A program made the position numbers and the translations under genes. The notes under the pieces were generated by a model. It ran no database searches. It had not been told where the DNA came from and worked only from the letters and a program-made list of their open reading frames with translations. DNA of 64,000 nt from Agelas oroides (taxonomy: Eukaryota > Porifera > Demospongiae > Agelasida > Agelasidae): the NCBI GenBank assembly GCA_949130485.1, contig OX422191.1, positions 3,721,754 through 3,785,753 on the forward strand, in the 5' to 3' direction. This document shows positions 19,983 through 32,583 of this stretch, piece by piece. Numbering within the stretch: position 1 is the stretch's first letter; every line of letters starts with the position of its first letter.

Positions 19983-20172
19983 TCTTTTCACTCTCTATCT
20001 TTCACCCTCTTCGTGCTTTACCTCTTATATACAAGTACTGAAATACCCAGTCCCCAGAAATTTTGTTTAACAAGTATTGCGTGTTTTTGTACTCTGTCTC
20101 ATAGGCCAGAATTGGCCTGTTGCCTTGTGGCGTGACGATAAAATTTCATTCATTCAATCATATATATCCACG

Positions 20173-20472
20173 ATGCCCGGAGACGCTTGTGTTGTATGTG
20201 GGAATGCTTGTGTGAAGACGCCACAGCTATCCTATCACCGCTTTCCCAGTGACCATGAGAAGCGTGCCTTGTGGCTGAAGGTGTTCCAGCTAACTGAGGA
20301 GCAGTTCAAGCCCCACCATCGAGTATGTTCTCGACATTTCCGTGATGGCAATCCGCAGAAAGGGCCCGACGTAGGTCTAGGAAAGCGTTTTGCTTCTCCA
20401 GTGAAGAAGGGAGCCCCTAGGACCAAGAGAGCTCGACTGGTTGCTGCTCGCTGCTTCAGTATATCACTGTAA
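20173..20472 (+). CDS. THAP zinc-finger domain ORF, truncated by a MITE
   Basis: From the ATG at 20173 the frame reads MPGDACVVCGN, LSYHRFPSDHEKRALWLKVF and VCSRHFRDGNPQKG. This is the C2CH THAP zinc-binding pattern: Cys-x2-Cys at residues 7 and 10, and Cys-x2-His in VCSRHF, with the conserved Trp between. THAP domains bind DNA and occur in host transcription factors and at the N-terminus of P-like and other transposases. The basic segment PVKKGAPRTKRAR follows. The last codons and the stop come from a MITE inserted at 20465, so the original downstream part is lost or displaced. An upstream in-frame ATG (20077) is less likely because the THAP domain normally starts at the protein N-terminus. 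Confidence 0.75.
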   Translation: MPGDACVVCGNACVKTPQLSYHRFPSDHEKRALWLKVFQLTEEQFKPHHRVCSRHFRDGNPQKGPDVGLGKRFASPVKKGAPRTKRARLVAARCFSISL

Positions 20473-21501: not shown

Positions 21502-22275
21502 TACCGTAGTGTCCCGCTAATACGCCCCCTTCGAAAATACGCCCCCCCCCCCCTCTTTTCCGCCAAAGTTCCTGCACAGGGTAGTTTGACTCGTTATAAC
21601 GCCCCCCGGTGAGCGTCTTCTGGAACATCAAAACTACACGTGCTTACTATACGTTGCAAGTGCGTTCAGTATAAGACTATAGTAGTCGGTGAATCTTTTG
21701 TAAGTTTTGTGGCTTTTAGAAAAGCCGGTTAGATGTTCCAAGTTTTAAGCTGCTAGTTTAGCAAACAGGTTTATCAGTCTGTCAACTTGGGTGTTTTTGC
21801 TTCCCTCTGAAGATGTACACGCACGGAACCACGAGTCCTTTCCCATCAACTTCAGAACGTCTTCTGTCACCATTGACGATGCAAGTCATCTCGCTGCCAC
21901 TCTTGTGCAAGAAATACCAGCAGACTCTGGAAATTTCCCGTGGTACATGACCGACAGTGTTGCCGTTCTTGAGGACAGCTACAGCGAAGTCGTCGTGAAT
22001 GTTATTGACCTCGCGTTGAACTGGCAGCTCTTCTGCGATGTAGGGAGACCACGCAGCTTTGTAAACGTGATGTCCGCGAACAGTACTCTCGATCCTGAAA
22101 GTCGTCGCCATAGTTAGTTGGAAGTGTCCTAATTGCGTGCATAGCACTTGCGTAAAATCTTTTGAGGGGGGGCTTATAGTCGAGACTAATTGCATCCTCG
22201 AATATAAGCCCCCCCCCACTTTAGGCGGGATGTAGTGTACAAAATGGGGGGGCGTATTAACGGGACACTACGGTA
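21502..22275. mobile_element. TACCGTA-tipped TIR element carrying a HIRAN-like ORF
   Basis: Ends TACCGTAGTGTCCCG and CGGGACACTACGGTA, flanked by TA, with G/C-rich subterminal tracts (ATACGCCCCC and GGGGGGCGTAT). It is inserted in the last codons of a LINE, whose sequence resumes on the other side. Most of the interior is one open frame, listed separately. Confidence 0.85.
21782..22111 (-). CDS. HIRAN-like domain protein inside a TIR element
   Basis: From the ATG at 22111 there are 109 codons (145 if the upstream in-frame ATG at 22219 is used). The frame reads MATTFRIESTVRGHHVY, REVNNIHDDFAVAVLKNG and NTVGHVPREISR. The order RE..N..D..AV.V..G..VGHVPR resembles the HIRAN fold, a small beta-barrel that binds DNA ends or damaged DNA in HLTF-like helicases and occurs alone in some mobile elements. 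The second half (CYIFRGKQKH region) is Cys- and Gly-containing but unassigned. The frame is free of stops and fills the element between its inverted repeats. The upstream start runs into the TIR. The family assignment rests on pattern only; the role in the element is unknown. Confidence 0.6.
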   Translation of the reverse strand: MATTFRIESTVRGHHVYKAAWSPYIAEELPVQREVNNIHDDFAVAVLKNGNTVGHVPREISRVCWYFLHKSGSEMTCIVNGDRRRSEVDGKGLVVPCVYIFRGKQKHPS

Positions 22276-23975
22276 CTTAGACCGGATCTGATGTTACGAA
22301 TAATTGTACCAATTTCAACGTCAGCTTCTGTGTAACTTTTGGCAAATTTAACTCCAGCCAACTTCTTGTAGCCAACTGAGGAGTAGCAGAGCTCAGAAGA
22401 GTGCTTGAAGATTGCTCTGACAATGTCAGAAGAACATTTCTCTGCTGAGCAGAGGAGCTTATAAGAGCGTTGGAGAACTTGGTTGAGTAGGCTGTGCAAA
22501 TGGGCAGTGCAGTGTACTACAGCAGTGTGAGAGGCACGCGGGAGTTTCCAAATTCTACGTAGGACCTTGTTGAAGCTCACTTCCACAGTCTGCAAAGATC
22601 TTGAGGAGATATTCCATAAAGCAGAACCATGAAGAGAGAGACAGTAGGACTGAAATAGATTGGTGAGAATAACAGGATCAAGATTGGGAAAGCAGCATAG
22701 GAGAGCATTAGACTTAGTTAGCATGTCCCTGCATTTGCTCAGTATATCTTCAGAGTCATTGAGGTCAGAGGAAAGAATATTGCCAAGATGCACAACTGTG
22801 TTGGAGAAGCCAAGAGGTATACCACAGAAGTTTATACTGGGAAGTGTAGATGGACCGGCAGCATGAGCTGAAAACTTGATGAGTTGTGACTTGCCGGGGT
22901 TGAACTTTAGACCATGCAAGGAGGCAAAAGACTCACAGCATCTCAGCGTCCGTCTGAGGGCAGATGCAGAGGGGGCCAGGATTGCCAAATCATAAGCATA
23001 TGCATAGGCCCCAGCAAAGTAAGAGTTCCAATAACAGCCAACACCTTGCTGTCTCAGTTCTAGAAGTAACTTGTCAATGTAAATTGTGAAAAGTACTGGA
23101 GAGAGCACACCACCTTGTCTAACACCATTGGAGACATTGAAAGAGTAGGAACTTTTAGAATTCCATCTGACTGAAAGCTTCTGGTCTACATACCAGTTTC
23201 TTAAAAGGCGAACGACGCATACTGGCATGCCTCTGTCAAGCAGCAATTGAAACAAAAGGTCATGGTTGACTAAATCAAATGCTTTACTAGCATCTAAAAA
23301 GCAGGCAAGGACAGGCGTCTTTCTATGTATGTATCTAGCAACAACATTCTTGATGGTATACCAGTACAAAGAGATGTGGACATACCGCTTTTGAAGCCAA
23401 ACTGCAGGTCTGAGGTACAGAAGTAATGGGGAAACTGCAGGAGTAGACACCATTCAAAGAGTTTACTGAAATTCGAAGCTAACACAATAGCCCTGTAACT
23501 CTCTGACTGAGCGATGTCTTTACCACGCTTGGGAATGGGATAAGCATACAATCCCTAATGGAAGCAGGAAAGTGACCATGTCTCAGCATAGCAGTGAATA
23601 AACAGCTGAGAGACTCAGAGATGGCCTCGGAGGCTAAAATCAGATGATCAGAATCTAGCTCAGAACTATCGGATTTCTTATGTTTAAGGTGTTTAATTGC
23701 CTCAGAGACACACTCAGGAGAGATATACATGTGGTGCTGGAGCAAGTCAGCTGAAGAGCAGTCTAGTGGGGTAGATGACACATGACCAGCATCAGTGCAA
23801 ATGTTCAGGGTCTTTGCAAATTGATCAGCAAACGGGTTTGCAATGTCATTGCGTTTTTATAGTGGCGTCAGCCTAAATAGAACAAACGGTATGCTGGAGT
23901 TGCGCGCAAGGTTCAAAAAACTGTATCTTTGCCATTATTAAATTTCATTGTACACACCACAGTATAGGTATAAGA

Positions 23976-24015
<40 letters not shown>

Positions 24016-24046
24016 GATAGTGTTAAATATTATATGAGAGTTACTA

Positions 24047-26899
24047 TTAATGAGTATACAAGTAATAAATTTCGTCAATAAGTTCTCTGTTCTCTTGTGG
24101 AAATAGCCGTACATCTCGTATAAAATTTGAGCACATTTTATCCGCATCAGTGTAGGTTCTCTGGTATCGATTGTAATTAAAAGCATTAAAGCCAAAGGTG
24201 GTGTATGATAATTGAGGTGCTTCTGTGAAGATATCGCGAATTAAAGGAATTCCTTTGGCTCTTGCTTTCTGATACAACATACTTGAACGATAAATAACAA
24301 TATTAAAGAGGCTTTGAAGGCTACTAATGCAATGAAGGATGCTAGTATGACAATGCTGAGGAAGCTTCCAAGTTTTTCTCAACAAATTGTTGAAAGTGAC
24401 TTCCAGTGAGCGCAGACTGGAAGATGACAATCTCCACAGTGCAGAGCCATAGAGAGAAAGACAGAAAGTACGAAATAAGAGGGTCTTGACAGCAGGATTA
24501 GCGGCATAAAAGGTAGATAAAAGGCAGTTAGCTCTACGGCACATATCGGTTTGAACCCTCAAAATATCATCAGTATCAGATAGGTCCGAACGTAAGGTAT
24601 GACCTAGATGACAGGCTCTATCAGCCAGATTGAGAGTTTGGCCAGCAAACAGAAAAGTCGGTGATGTAGATGGGTTAGGTGAGGAGCAAGGTAAGGAGAA
24701 TCGAACAAGTTGTGTTTTTTTCCTGGATTAAATAAAAGGTTGTATAATCATTGAACAGGTATTGTGCATCATTCTTAAAGCTGAGGCAGAGGGACCCAAA
24801 AGAACAATGTCATCTGCATACCCAAGAGCTCCAACAAAATAGTGTGACCAATAGCAGCCAACAGCTTGAGATTCTAATCTGGTCAGTAATTCATCTAGCC
24901 TCGTTCCCAGGCTCTCCCCGCTAAGGAGGGAGAGCCTGGGAACGAGGCTATAATTCATCAATATAAACAATGAAAAGTATTGGTGATAAAACACCACCTT
25001 GTCTAACACCATTAGAAACTGAGAAATTCTCTGAAAGAGTTTTATTCCAGAGAACTGAGGATTTTTGCCAGGAGAAAAGCAATCTAATAATGGTTGGTGG
25101 GAGATTTTTCTCAAGTAGCTTGCTAAATAACTTGAGGTGACTGACTCGATCGAATGCCTTTGAGGCATCGAGCAAGCATCCAAACACATTAGAGCCATTA
25201 AAACAGTAGCGACTGATGACATTTTTAATTAGGCCGGTGCAATGTCAGCTGACATGCCAGCTTTAAAGCCAAATTGAAGAGGCAAGGTGGAGAGAGAGTC
25301 TCCATAGATGAGTAAAATGCACCACTCTAAGACCTTGCTCAATGTTGGAGCAAGAGCAATTGGTCTGTAATTGTCAGAGCAAGCCGGGTCTTTCCCTGGC
25401 TTGGGAATTAGCTGAAGAATACAATCTCTTAAGAGCTTGGGAACATAGCCATGTCTTACAACGGAAGTGAAAAGTTGACTCAAAGGGTTGCTGAGAATAT
25501 CTTTGGCAAATATAAAAGCATCAGAAAATGGACTTGAACCATCTGATTTTCCTTTCTTGAGTTGATGAAGTGCATTCAATACAACAGTAGAAGAAATTTC
25601 AGAGGTTAGCAGGTCAGAGTTTGAAATGGAATCAGTGAGATCAGCAAGGAAACTATTCCCAGATGATTGGTTAAGAATTGAGTAGCGAAGAGATTTTAGA
25701 GGAGAGATATCATCGTCAGTGGTGAGACCGTCAATTACGTTACAACCAGAGAATTTGCTGTTACCATGATTCTGACGAACTAGGTTCCAAAAATCATTGG
25801 TACGTGAATTGCACCAAGCCCCAGCCAGTTTCTCACTCTTGATATGATCAGCTTGTCTTTTGAGACGGACTTCATACTTATAGCGGCTTTTAGTGTTTTT
25901 CTTAATTGTTGATAATACTCCAGAAGACGGACAGCCACACTCCTTCCATATTCTGTCCCATTTTGTCTGAGAGATTTAGCTTTGTCATTCCAACCAGGAA
26001 CTCTGCGAGCTTTGCGCGGCAGGATTTTGGGAAAACAGGCATGTGCTGCTAGATCGATCGCCACAAGCAATTGATTACAACAGTGGTCAATGATATCCTT
26101 GTGTGTTGAACATTGAGGATCAATGCAGGAGTGAGCTGAGCTGGAAAGTGAGGGAAGGTTGTGCTGAAGGAGATGCTGAAAATTCCTTATGTCATCCTCA
26201 GTGATTTTGCTCCAATTGATCTTAGTGGATAAGGAATCAGAAGTTGAGTTTGTCTGACCAATTGAAATAGGCCTAATGTGTGTCGAGAGAGCAGAGCAAT
26301 TCAGAGTGAAAAACACTGGAAGGTGATCAGAAAAGTTGTCAGCAGAATCAGTTGATATTATATTACTGATAGTGTTCAAAATTGCTGAAGAACAAATAAC
26401 GTGATCAACCCAGGAAAAAGACTGGTGATCATCACGTCTGTATGTGAATGAAATATCAGAACATATATCACCCCTAACGAGATCAAAGGCTTGCATGAAG
26501 CACTCAAGGATAGTGCGATTAGGGCCGTCTTTAGCAAAATCAACATTAAAATCGCCAGTGATGACCACACGATCATATGTCTGAGTTAATAGAAATCCTT
26601 CCAATTCAGCAATAGCTTCTCGAAAAGTGGTAGTTGACTCATCTGAACCATAGTTAGTGGGTAGATAGACATTGACAATGAGGATGGAGACAATCTGTTG
26701 AGTCCAACAGTTTAAGCAAGAGTGCACAGAAGCGTGTTGAGCAAGATTTAAGACGGGAAATTGAGTGGGAGAATGATTTGCGAAAGAAAAATGTACAGCC
26801 ACCATATGGTCTACCAAGAATCAATTCATCACTAGACATTCCACTAACAGAAACAGAGTAAAAGTCATTACAAATATTCAATGATCTTGAAACAGCCAA
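24047..26899 (-). pseudogene. LINE ORF2: AP-like endonuclease and reverse transcriptase
   Basis: The endonuclease part (26899..25780) shows VVITGDFNVDFAKDG, SFSWVDHVI and FSDHLPVFF, the catalytic blocks of APE-type LINE endonucleases. The polymerase part follows with DNYRPIALAPTLSKVLEW, QFGFKAGMS, CLLDASKAFDRVSHL, VSNGVRQGGVLSPILF and GYADDIVLLGPSASAL, the last holding the intact catalytic Asp pair. The thumb and C-terminal part runs 24562..24047. The reading frame shifts at several points (near 25580, 25220 and 24700) and a hairpin element interrupts it at 24896..24950. Such proteins nick target DNA and copy their own RNA into it. Confidence 0.85.
24896..24950. mobile_element. Hairpin element, 55 bp, in the LINE reverse transcriptase
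   Basis: TAGCCTCGTTCCCAGGCTCTC then its inverse, ending GGGAACGAGGCTA. Flanked by a perfect 9-bp duplication, TAATTCATC (24887..24895 and 24951..24959). Removing one duplication and the element restores an uninterrupted RT reading of the LINE. Confidence 0.95.
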
Positions 26900-27010
26900 T
26901 GTTCTTGAATCAAGCAGAAATCACATGACTTTAAAAGGTCATTGACATAATCACAACCAGATTTCCAACCACGACAATTATATGTACAGAACTTCAATGA
27001 TTCAGAAGTG

Positions 27011-28380
27011 TTACTGCTCATGATGAGCTACAGGAGGGCCAGAAGTTGTACCTGTAGACTCAGCATCAGAAAGATCAACATCAGAGTGGTGGGAGTTATC
27101 AGCTGCCTGTGGTTGGGAGGGTTGGTGTGAAGTCACAATAATGCGACGATTAGCCCTTTGAGGATGATCTGGAGGAAGATCGGCCCTGAGAAAGAGCCTC
27201 TTAAAAGTAGAGAATCCTGATAAGAGCAACCTCTTATCCCAATCACTGTCTAGAGTGATGAGTATGGGTCTAGGCCTAGTAGGAGTTGAATCACTGCCAG
27301 GGGGTTTACGCCGTCCAAGACGGATTGCATTACGGACATTGACCTTCTTACCAATAAGATACTCTGATATCTCATCAATGGCTGATTTAGTCTCCATCAT
27401 GGATGCTTCAGGTAAGTTAAAAAGAATGATTCTGTTAGATCGAGAAGATGGATTCAATAACTTGTGACCCTGGGTAGCCCCAGCCTTCTGTGTGGAAGAA
27501 CTATGATCATGTCCAGCAGTGGAAGCCTCAGAGCTTGACGGTGCACTAGTTGAAGGTAATGAAGACGGAGTTTTAATACACTCAGAGAGGGACTCAAGTT
27601 GGGTCTGAATGTTATTGGCAAGATCATCTAGAGCAGACTTGTAAGTGTCAGCTGGTGGTTAAGAGAACTTTTCTGAAAGTTGTGAAATCACAGAAGTCAG
27701 GCAGTCAATGCTGGAAGTGTTTTCTGAAAGCTTTTTCACAATCGGATCAAGAACGACAGAAGGAATTGAGAGAAGATCTGTGGCTTCTACAAATATATCT
27801 GGAAGCTTGCTGGCATTATCAAGAGCGTCAAAAGCAACAATAACATCACCAAGAATGGCATCAGAAACTGAACGCTTGTCAGAGTCTCTTCTGTTTTTAA
27901 ATGCGAGACCAAGTTCCTCAAGATCATTCTTGCAATGCTGCCAGAGAGATTTGTGAGCATCGACTAGAAGCGAGGAGTCAACAACAGAGAGAAGAGCATT
28001 GCATAGACCACTTACATCACCTCTCAACCTGTAAGCTTTGATAAAAGCAAGCAGAGGGTTTGTCTGTAAGGATGACACAGGTGGATTGAGGGATCCATCA
28101 CGAATGGGAGCAGGAGATTGAGATCGAGAGGATGGATTGGTGACAGCCCTCTAGCATTATCTGCCAGAGAAGAGAGATAGTTTCCTAATTGAGTGATTCC
28201 ATGATAAATAGAACGTCTCCAGTTTTTGCTTTTTTCCTTGCCCCCAAGTGACTCAAACTCCACTGGGGTAAACCAATTTGAATGAGAGAGAATGCATTTC
28301 ACACCTCCCTTACTGCCAGTAGCACCTTTAAACTTCTCTAAATAGAAATCATGCACCAGTTGCAGAACCACATTTAACAA
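27011..28380 (-). pseudogene. LINE ORF1 with SAND-like N-terminus and RRM-like domain
   Basis: The first frame (28380..28024) reads FKGATGSKGGVKCILSH, NWFTPVEFESLGG and SKNWRRSIYHGITQLGNYL. This is the pattern of a SAND domain (KC-I, W-TP-EFE and a K-x-W-[KR] motif in the DNA-binding helix, as in Sp100/DEAF-1). A frame change near 28078 leads to a helical segment (28078..27659). The C-terminal part (27457..27011) has SNRIILFNLPEA and RPILITLDSDWDKRLLL, typical of the RRM-like domain of LINE ORF1 proteins, followed by a Ser/His/Pro-rich tail. ORF1 proteins coat the element RNA. A SAND domain is not a usual ORF1 part; the linkage here is by position and continuous orientation. Confidence 0.65.
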
Positions 28381-31578: not shown

Positions 31579-32583
31579 CTATTTAAGCCTGGCATGCACT
31601 ATGCAAAACACTTAGACACTTGTGCAGCAGTGTGAGAGACCAAAGAAAGTGACACAGCGAGACTAGACATGAAGGATGTACAAACTACTGTTGCATTCAC
31701 AGGCCAATATCCCGTGACACAGACAACCTGCTTTCCATGGAGTCTTTAACATAACCATCTTTGGCATTTTCGCTACGCCAATGACCATGGCGTTTGAACA
31801 AACGGTCTGGGACACCAGCATTTGCTGCTGCAGAGGCACCACCAGACCTGAGGCTATGAGGGCCGAACTGTTTGGGGTCAAAGCCCAATGCAGCCAGTTT
31901 CTGCAGTACAAGTTCCCTCACTCGGGTGTAGCTTATGCCACCTTTCTTCCTGCAAGATAGTTTATTGGCGATGGGGGAATGCAAGATTGCTGGGATACTG
32001 TGGAATGCTGGAGTTATGTGCATTTAAAGCAGGAGTTGAGCGGGAGGTAGCATTCTCTCAGCAACTATACTCCTGCTGCCACTGAAGCAAAATTTTTACT
32101 TTTTTTGTGAAGTATCTTGCTACAGGAAGCAGAGAAGATGGGGCTCAAGCCTTGAAGCTACAGTTTGTAGTAACAATTTCTTATCATGGGGTGTCTAGTC
32201 TTTCACATGTGCAGGAAAGAAGAGCCTGGAAGATGTGAGGAGATCTAAAAGTCATCGATCAGCGATGAGCTCTTGAACTCTGTGTAGCCTCTGGGGTGTT
32301 AATTTTCTTTTCCCCTCACAATTTTTTCCTCACTGAGGTTTTTTAGAGGGTTTTTTTCCCCATGGGTGTGCTGGCACATGCCCAAAATAACTTTTTTTTC
32401 CAGTGTTGGCTCACCCCAATGCAATCCTTAGACCTCATGCATGTTAGCTGTACAGGTCTGGTGCATATTGTCTGTACTCTGTACATTATCTTTAGTGGCA
32501 GCGCTCACACAGTTGCTACACACACACACTGCTGCACAAGTGTCTAAGTGTTTTGCATAGTGCATGCCGGGCTTAAATAGGAG
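31579..32583. mobile_element. TIR-flanked tyrosine-recombinase element (fossil)
   Basis: TCCTATTTAAGCCTGGCATG at the left is repeated in inverse at the right (CATGCCGGGCTTAAATAGGA), with about 60 bp of matching arm. Between them lies a tyrosine recombinase fragment. Size about 1.0 kb, so most coding capacity is missing. Inverted ends together with a tyrosine recombinase fit a DIRS-like origin better than a Crypton. Broken, age unknown. Confidence 0.6.
31697..32023 (-). pseudogene. Tyrosine recombinase C-terminal fragment (fossil)
   Basis: The minus-strand frame contains FGPHSLRSGGASAAANAG and HGHWRSENAKDGYV. This is the HxLR box, the H/W position and the nucleophile Tyr region of tyrosine recombinases of DIRS/Crypton type. 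Only the C-terminal catalytic part is present, so I treat it as a fossil. Confidence 0.7.

Follow-up and report, generated by a model that had tools for sequence, protein, structure and literature searches.

SAND-headed ORF1 in several APE-type LINE families of the sponge Agelas oroides and its possible role in target choice

Comparison of sequences within the genome of the sponge Agelas oroides shows an APE-type LINE whose ORF1 is headed by a SAND domain, and the copy in the window (the whole stretch of 64,000 nucleotides analysed here, positions 3,721,754 to 3,785,753 of contig OX422191.1) belongs to one of several such families. That the SAND head binds CpG-containing DNA and holds the LINE particle at its target is a proposal to which we give about even weight. 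No report of SAND in a LINE ORF1 was found in the literature searched, outside of which lay Repbase and most subscription papers.

The original prediction had read a SAND pattern in the N-terminal frame of the window LINE, and a profile search bears this out: the minus-strand frame 28386-28024 matched Pfam SAND (PF01342, E 4.3e-14) at 52.4 bits, with a cut-off of 22 (Table 1). The APE endonuclease and reverse transcriptase that had been expected downstream in one orientation were likewise recovered by Pfam and blastp, as pieces on the minus strand. By blastn, sister copies (L002, L003, L035 and L036) are homologous to the window LINE over 28379-23934, piecewise and with 91-93% identity. Because this homology begins at 28379, and because the first 17 positions of the SAND profile are unmatched, the window copy is evidently a 5′-truncated relic with its 5′ end within SAND. 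SAND and the next part of ORF1 lie in different frames, the ORF1 frame is closed by a stop codon at 27661-27659, and ORF2 is broken up over several frames. The predicted RRM-like ORF1 domain, which in a type II ORF1 (coiled coil, RRM and CTD) would be related to L1 ORF1p, is a candidate: sequence blocks of the ORF1 core are common to seven families in an alignment, but the SAND-LINE ORF1 gave no Pfam RRM or Tnp22 match (E 0.1) and the core no match to L1 ORF1p in PDB (E 10). The reverse transcriptase of the window copy contains a palindrome, perhaps a small mobile element; TAGCCTCGTTCCCAGGCT was found again in L053.

Table 1. Features of the window, with the apparent host SAND gene of locus L053
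Feature	Position	Strand	Basis
Broken LINE copy, family A3, 5′-truncated within SAND	23934..28379	-	blastn against sister copies L002, L003, L035, L036
SAND domain, profile positions 18-70 of 76	28177..28347	-	Pfam PF01342, E 4.3e-14
Unnamed ORF1 domain 3′ of SAND	27698..28060	-	48% to A1 (blastp, domain pieces)
ORF1 core, RRM-like by shared blocks alone	27143..27442	-	45% to A1 (blastp); seven-family alignment
APE endonuclease, two pieces (27021-26881 and 26691-26293)	26293..27021	-	Pfam Exo_endo_phos_2, E 1.5e-7
Reverse transcriptase, three pieces	24740..25633	-	Pfam RVT_1, E 7.6e-12 for one piece
Palindrome, 55 nt, perfect 23-nt arms, 9-nt spacer, within reverse transcriptase	24896..24950	.	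sequence analysis
Second LINE fragment with reverse transcriptase, group A-like	22257..23856	-	frames; Pfam RVT_1, E 1.5e-22; 52-61% to A1/A2 reverse transcriptase
Apparent host SAND gene	L053:6989-7885	-	Pfam E 3.4e-23

Three protein searches of the sponge's own genome (259 Mb, 141 contigs), with the SANDs of the window, of family D and of family C as queries, found 28 SAND places, 27 of which were assigned to LINE families; these counts, and that of host SAND genes, are lower bounds. The LINE places comprise three for family A1, four for A2, the window and three others for A3, one for A4, four for B (one a relic), ten for C and one for D. Further LINE parts were read near 21 of the 27, and six (C20:3050671, C4:2127500, C4:1642610, C4:2088407, C11:4197557 and C6:1984646) were assigned by likeness of the SAND/ORF1 frame alone. 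The sole place outside the LINE families, in L053, has no LINE part in the 9 kb read, and its SAND looks like part of a host gene. In copies of several families SAND stands in long open ORF1 frames, which supports it as a genuine component of ORF1 in these LINEs. We therefore reject the idea that SAND is a chance neighbour of the window LINE; that SAND and the remainder of ORF1 occupy different frames in the window speaks for it, but with nearly all SAND places LINE-assigned, 21 with LINE parts nearby and several in one long ORF1 frame, its probability is negligible.

We read 20 of the 28 SAND places, over 8-9 kb each; 19 are LINEs, and in 15 of these, all loci picked by SAND, the order SAND, ORF1 core, endonuclease and reverse transcriptase was collinear on one strand, as had been predicted. 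In the remaining four, the core and endonuclease were undetected in L037 (family A4), the core in L045 (family D, for which no core reference existed), the endonuclease and reverse transcriptase in L054, and the reverse transcriptase in L051, where a match lies farther along. Five copies (L038, L041, L044, L046 and L048) have complete-length frames for SAND-ORF1 and ORF2, while the ORF2 end of L042 is shorter. Four LINE ORF1s scanned with Pfam (L038, L044, L046 and L050) matched SAND at E 1.1e-12 to 9.5e-17 and 47.9-60.9 bits (cut-off 22). The note's own refutation, that other copies of this LINE lack SAND, did not come about: among the three other window-family copies found by DNA that reach the region, two carry SAND, with stop codons inside, and one a remnant. 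Where the ORF2 match starts from residue 1, SAND was matched in four of seven A2 copies and three of four B copies; two further copies whose ORF2 matches are long, one of A1 on C14 (2210265) and one of family C on C11 (7287002), gave no SAND match in the protein searches. These six long-ORF2 copies (A2 on C1, C2 and C17, A1 on C14, B on C10 and C on C11) may be either truncated within ORF1 or SAND-less.

The class of the element is clear from ORF2: Pfam Exo_endo_phos and RVT_1 were both found in L038, L044, L045 and L046, as in an APE-type LINE, and the A1 and A2 ORF2 carries GDFN, SDH and YADD motifs. The 5′ ends vary among copies, and the 3′ tails are (ATT)n or (ATTACA)n in A1, A2 and B. In a comparison with PDB, the ORF2 of A2 and C was nearest to R2 and then L1, and that of B and D to L1.

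A profile of eight SANDs, the window's among them, matched SP100-B in PDB at E 2.8e-15, and the nearest PDB SANDs are those of SP100 and SP140, the SP140 entry being named a nuclear-body protein; SP100 is a nuclear-body protein too. Cys, Trp, Glu, Gly, Trp and Ser positions are invariant in eight aligned SANDs, the host SAND among them. At the position of KDWK, the motif for DNA binding, the seven aligned LINE SANDs read KNWR, KNWK, KKWR or GKWR, and the host SAND reads KDWK. DEAF1, GMEB1 and SP100/SP140 have the same domain as the LINE SANDs, in which the core is KDWK-like, but are host proteins, whereas here SAND sits on a retrotransposon ORF1. Identity of the LINE-family SANDs to the SAND of B is 28-45%. 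Purifying selection on SAND is supported by Ka/Ks values of 0-0.24 in five of six pairs of four family C copies (pairs that are not independent and differ by 1 to 9 changes each; the sixth gave 1.25 on six changes). Between families, with synonymous sites near or beyond saturation, Ka/Ks is 0.25-0.56 where computable. A tree of eleven SANDs lacked resolution; C fell with the host SAND at 70 and A with SP100/SP140 at 38-68, compatible with single as well as multiple capture.

Relatives of these families differ at the ORF1 head. Families E (992-aa ORF2 frame, 46% to A2) and F (1023-aa frame, 41% to A2) have an ORF1 that starts at a domain like that 3′ of SAND in A, and no SAND was present in the 1.7-1.9 kb read in one copy of each. 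In L057 and L058, whose ORF2 makes them relatives of C (35-36%, about 460-500 bits), the ORF1 start bears a PHD finger instead of SAND, with E 1.9e-6, above the curated cut-off, in L058 and E 3.2e-4, just under it, in L057; no PHD match was found in the four SAND-LINE ORF1s scanned with Pfam. By a rough comparison made with another program (blastp), C and B, both SAND-bearing, are 25% alike at about 250 bits. SAND is therefore scattered over the reverse transcriptase relationships, since the PHD-headed L057 and L058 are nearer to C than is SAND-bearing B, a pattern that could come from repeated capture, exchange of ORF1 or loss. Because E and F are SAND-less and two relatives of C are PHD-headed, SAND looks like an exchangeable head of ORF1, as with the known PHD.

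The same arrangement is known from CR1/L2 LINEs with PHD in ORF1 (Metcalfe and Casane 2014, PMC4120745), in some subgroups of which the reader-type module likewise stands N-terminal, before the ORF1 core, and which L057 and L058 resemble in being PHD-headed. The lineage-to-lineage exchange, or reticulate ORF1 evolution, described there also resembles the scatter of SAND here. The difference is that SAND takes the place of PHD; the word SAND is absent from the main text of that paper. PHD heads of ORF1 have been suggested to target LINEs; the authors of that paper knew of no functional studies in 2014.

As judged from the flanking DNA, the seven SAND-bearing A1 and A2 copies and one B copy lie in a satellite, largely at fixed places of its unit. 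Tandem repeats of 192 bp stand on both flanks in three of three A1, four of four A2 and one of three B loci read, the units being of one type around A1 and the B copy and of another around A2. No satellite was seen in the whole 64-kb window, at the other A3 loci, in A4, C, D and two of the three B loci, in L055-L058, or on the 5′ flank of E and F (one copy each). The genome contains 6961 occurrences of a 14-mer of the unit and 0 of its reversed control; as the 14-mer is present in 61 of the 139.6 units of the arrays read, the satellite would amount to about 15,900 units, equal to 3.1 Mb and 1.2% of the genome, a share that may be exceeded because the L047 array lacks the 14-mer. The chance that all seven SAND copies of A1 and A2 fall in satellite is 4e-14 at a share of 1.2% and 1e-7 at 10%. 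The observed/expected ratio of CpG is 0.87-1.16 for the arrays, as against 0.52 for the window. Clusters of the satellite extend over about 23.76-30.37 Mb of C1, one of them at a distance of about 20 kb from the A4 copy L037.

Within the unit, A1 has its 3′ junctions at positions 178, 179 and 180, one of them in reversed orientation (probability that three lie within 3 bp, 0.0005), A2 at 0, 0, 0 and 154 (probability that three of four coincide, 0.00015) and B at 182; each position may shift by a few bases, as tail and target have letters in common. The A2 3′ end has 34 matches in the whole genome, and one pair of these on C1 is separated by 149 bp. A pattern for the junction at the A2 site, designed once L042-L044 were known, matched seven times (control, 0): six matches adjoin an A2 3′ end, L042, L043 and L044 among them, and the seventh lies behind another A2 body. 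By chance 0.001 of the 34 would be expected at the site, for one base and orientation. The remaining 28 of the 34 lie away from the tested site, L041 being one of these, elsewhere in the satellite; an A2 copy with full-length ORF2 at 27.91 Mb of C1 is not near any 14-mer array. For A1, three of 16 tail matches, the three known copies, are at the A1 site and 13 elsewhere, and the junction pattern matched three more times elsewhere and once in the control. We take copies that differ in 5′ end and orientation to be separate insertions and not duplications of the array.

As to what the head does, we consider SAND a reader of the target as the likeliest reading, held at roughly fifty-fifty confidence, with the endonuclease acting alone as its main rival. 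SAND within the ORF1 ribonucleoprotein would bind CpG-containing DNA, for example TTCG motifs, like the SAND of DEAF1, and once bound would hold the particle at the target; the APE endonuclease would then nick an AT-rich site nearby, and reverse transcription would be primed there at short AT matches, as the tails and target places suggest. According to PMC4274154, DEAF1 uses SAND to bind unmethylated TTCG half-sites in pairs whose CpGs are 6-11 nt apart; that DNA binding by DEAF1 also requires an adjacent zinc finger counts against the parallel. One such TTCG pair, its CpGs separated by 8 nt, stands in the A2 unit some 5-8 bp away from the main insertion point. Of 2000 dinucleotide-shuffled A2 units, 24 have such a pair at any position; the A1 unit has one TTCG alone and no pair. 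The TTCG link to the A2 site was spotted in hindsight and serves as a lead. The predicted choice of target through SAND is plausible: the preference for satellite seen in A1, in A2 and in one copy of B favours it indirectly, but the SAND copies read of A3, A4, C and D show no such preference, and as these and two of three B copies lie outside the satellite, SAND is not sufficient for satellite targeting. The fuller version, in which ORF1 captured a host-type SAND that reads sequence and directs insertion to one fixed place of a CpG-rich satellite, ORF1 thereby co-determining the target with the endonuclease, is tentative and in our view rather doubtful.

R1, SART/TRAS and Tx1 are site-specific APE LINEs that insert repeatedly at the same base of a repeat, and the families here likewise insert at the same base of a repeat, except that the preference is partial and the target a 192-bp satellite. 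As in such elements, the endonuclease alone might select the satellite site, with SAND serving nuclear import, multimerisation or contact with a host nuclear protein; this has a substantial probability, although one short of even. The unit places that differ by family (178-180, 182, 0 and 154), the AT-rich insertion places that fit (ATT)n or (ATTACA)n tails and the SAND copies with no satellite preference all suit it, yet it leaves unexplained both the retention of SAND in several divergent families and the shared ORF1 place of SAND and PHD. We regard it as unlikely, if worth considering, that what SAND reads is chromatin, a host protein or the promoter region of the element itself instead of the target, and that it aids expression or escape from silencing, comparable to the epigenetic-reader role proposed for PHD. 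The PHD fingers at the same position in L057 and L058 agree with such a role, as do the nuclear-body SP100 and SP140 as nearest PDB SANDs and the protein contacts also described for DEAF1 SAND (PMC4274154), while the retained KDWK-like core speaks against it.

Survival might also produce the satellite association, if long copies outlasted others in gene-poor arrays. The seven SAND-bearing A1 and A2 copies are indeed all long, and most other A2 3′-end matches lie away from the site; survival, however, cannot put junctions on the same unit base, and this clustering makes it improbable. Nor does it sit well with four copies at the A2 site that gave no SAND match, three of them (C5:4904184, C7:5703226 and C11:74790) with an ORF2 match that starts after residue 40, and the fourth at C2:4531643. 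Concentration in one type of chromosomal region is also a feature of Celine, a centromeric poplar LINE (PMC11288735), which differs in being a plant LINE with DUF4283 in ORF1; the available part of that source describes neither SAND nor a fixed place in a satellite unit.

If SAND does read the target, target choice would be determined by ORF1 too, beyond the endonuclease. SAND-headed, PHD-headed and headless sister families coexist in this one genome, and for two of the SAND families the satellite target is defined; guidance of integration by ORF1 is therefore testable by domain exchange and DNA-binding assays.

The window also holds other domain frames. A THAP domain frame lies at 20071-20472 on the plus strand (Pfam E 3.4e-11), and a HIRAN domain frame at 21782-22267 on the minus strand (Pfam E 8.5e-7) adjoins the second LINE fragment. 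A minus-strand frame at 31697-32023, with no Pfam match at 0.001, resembles the end of a tyrosine recombinase.
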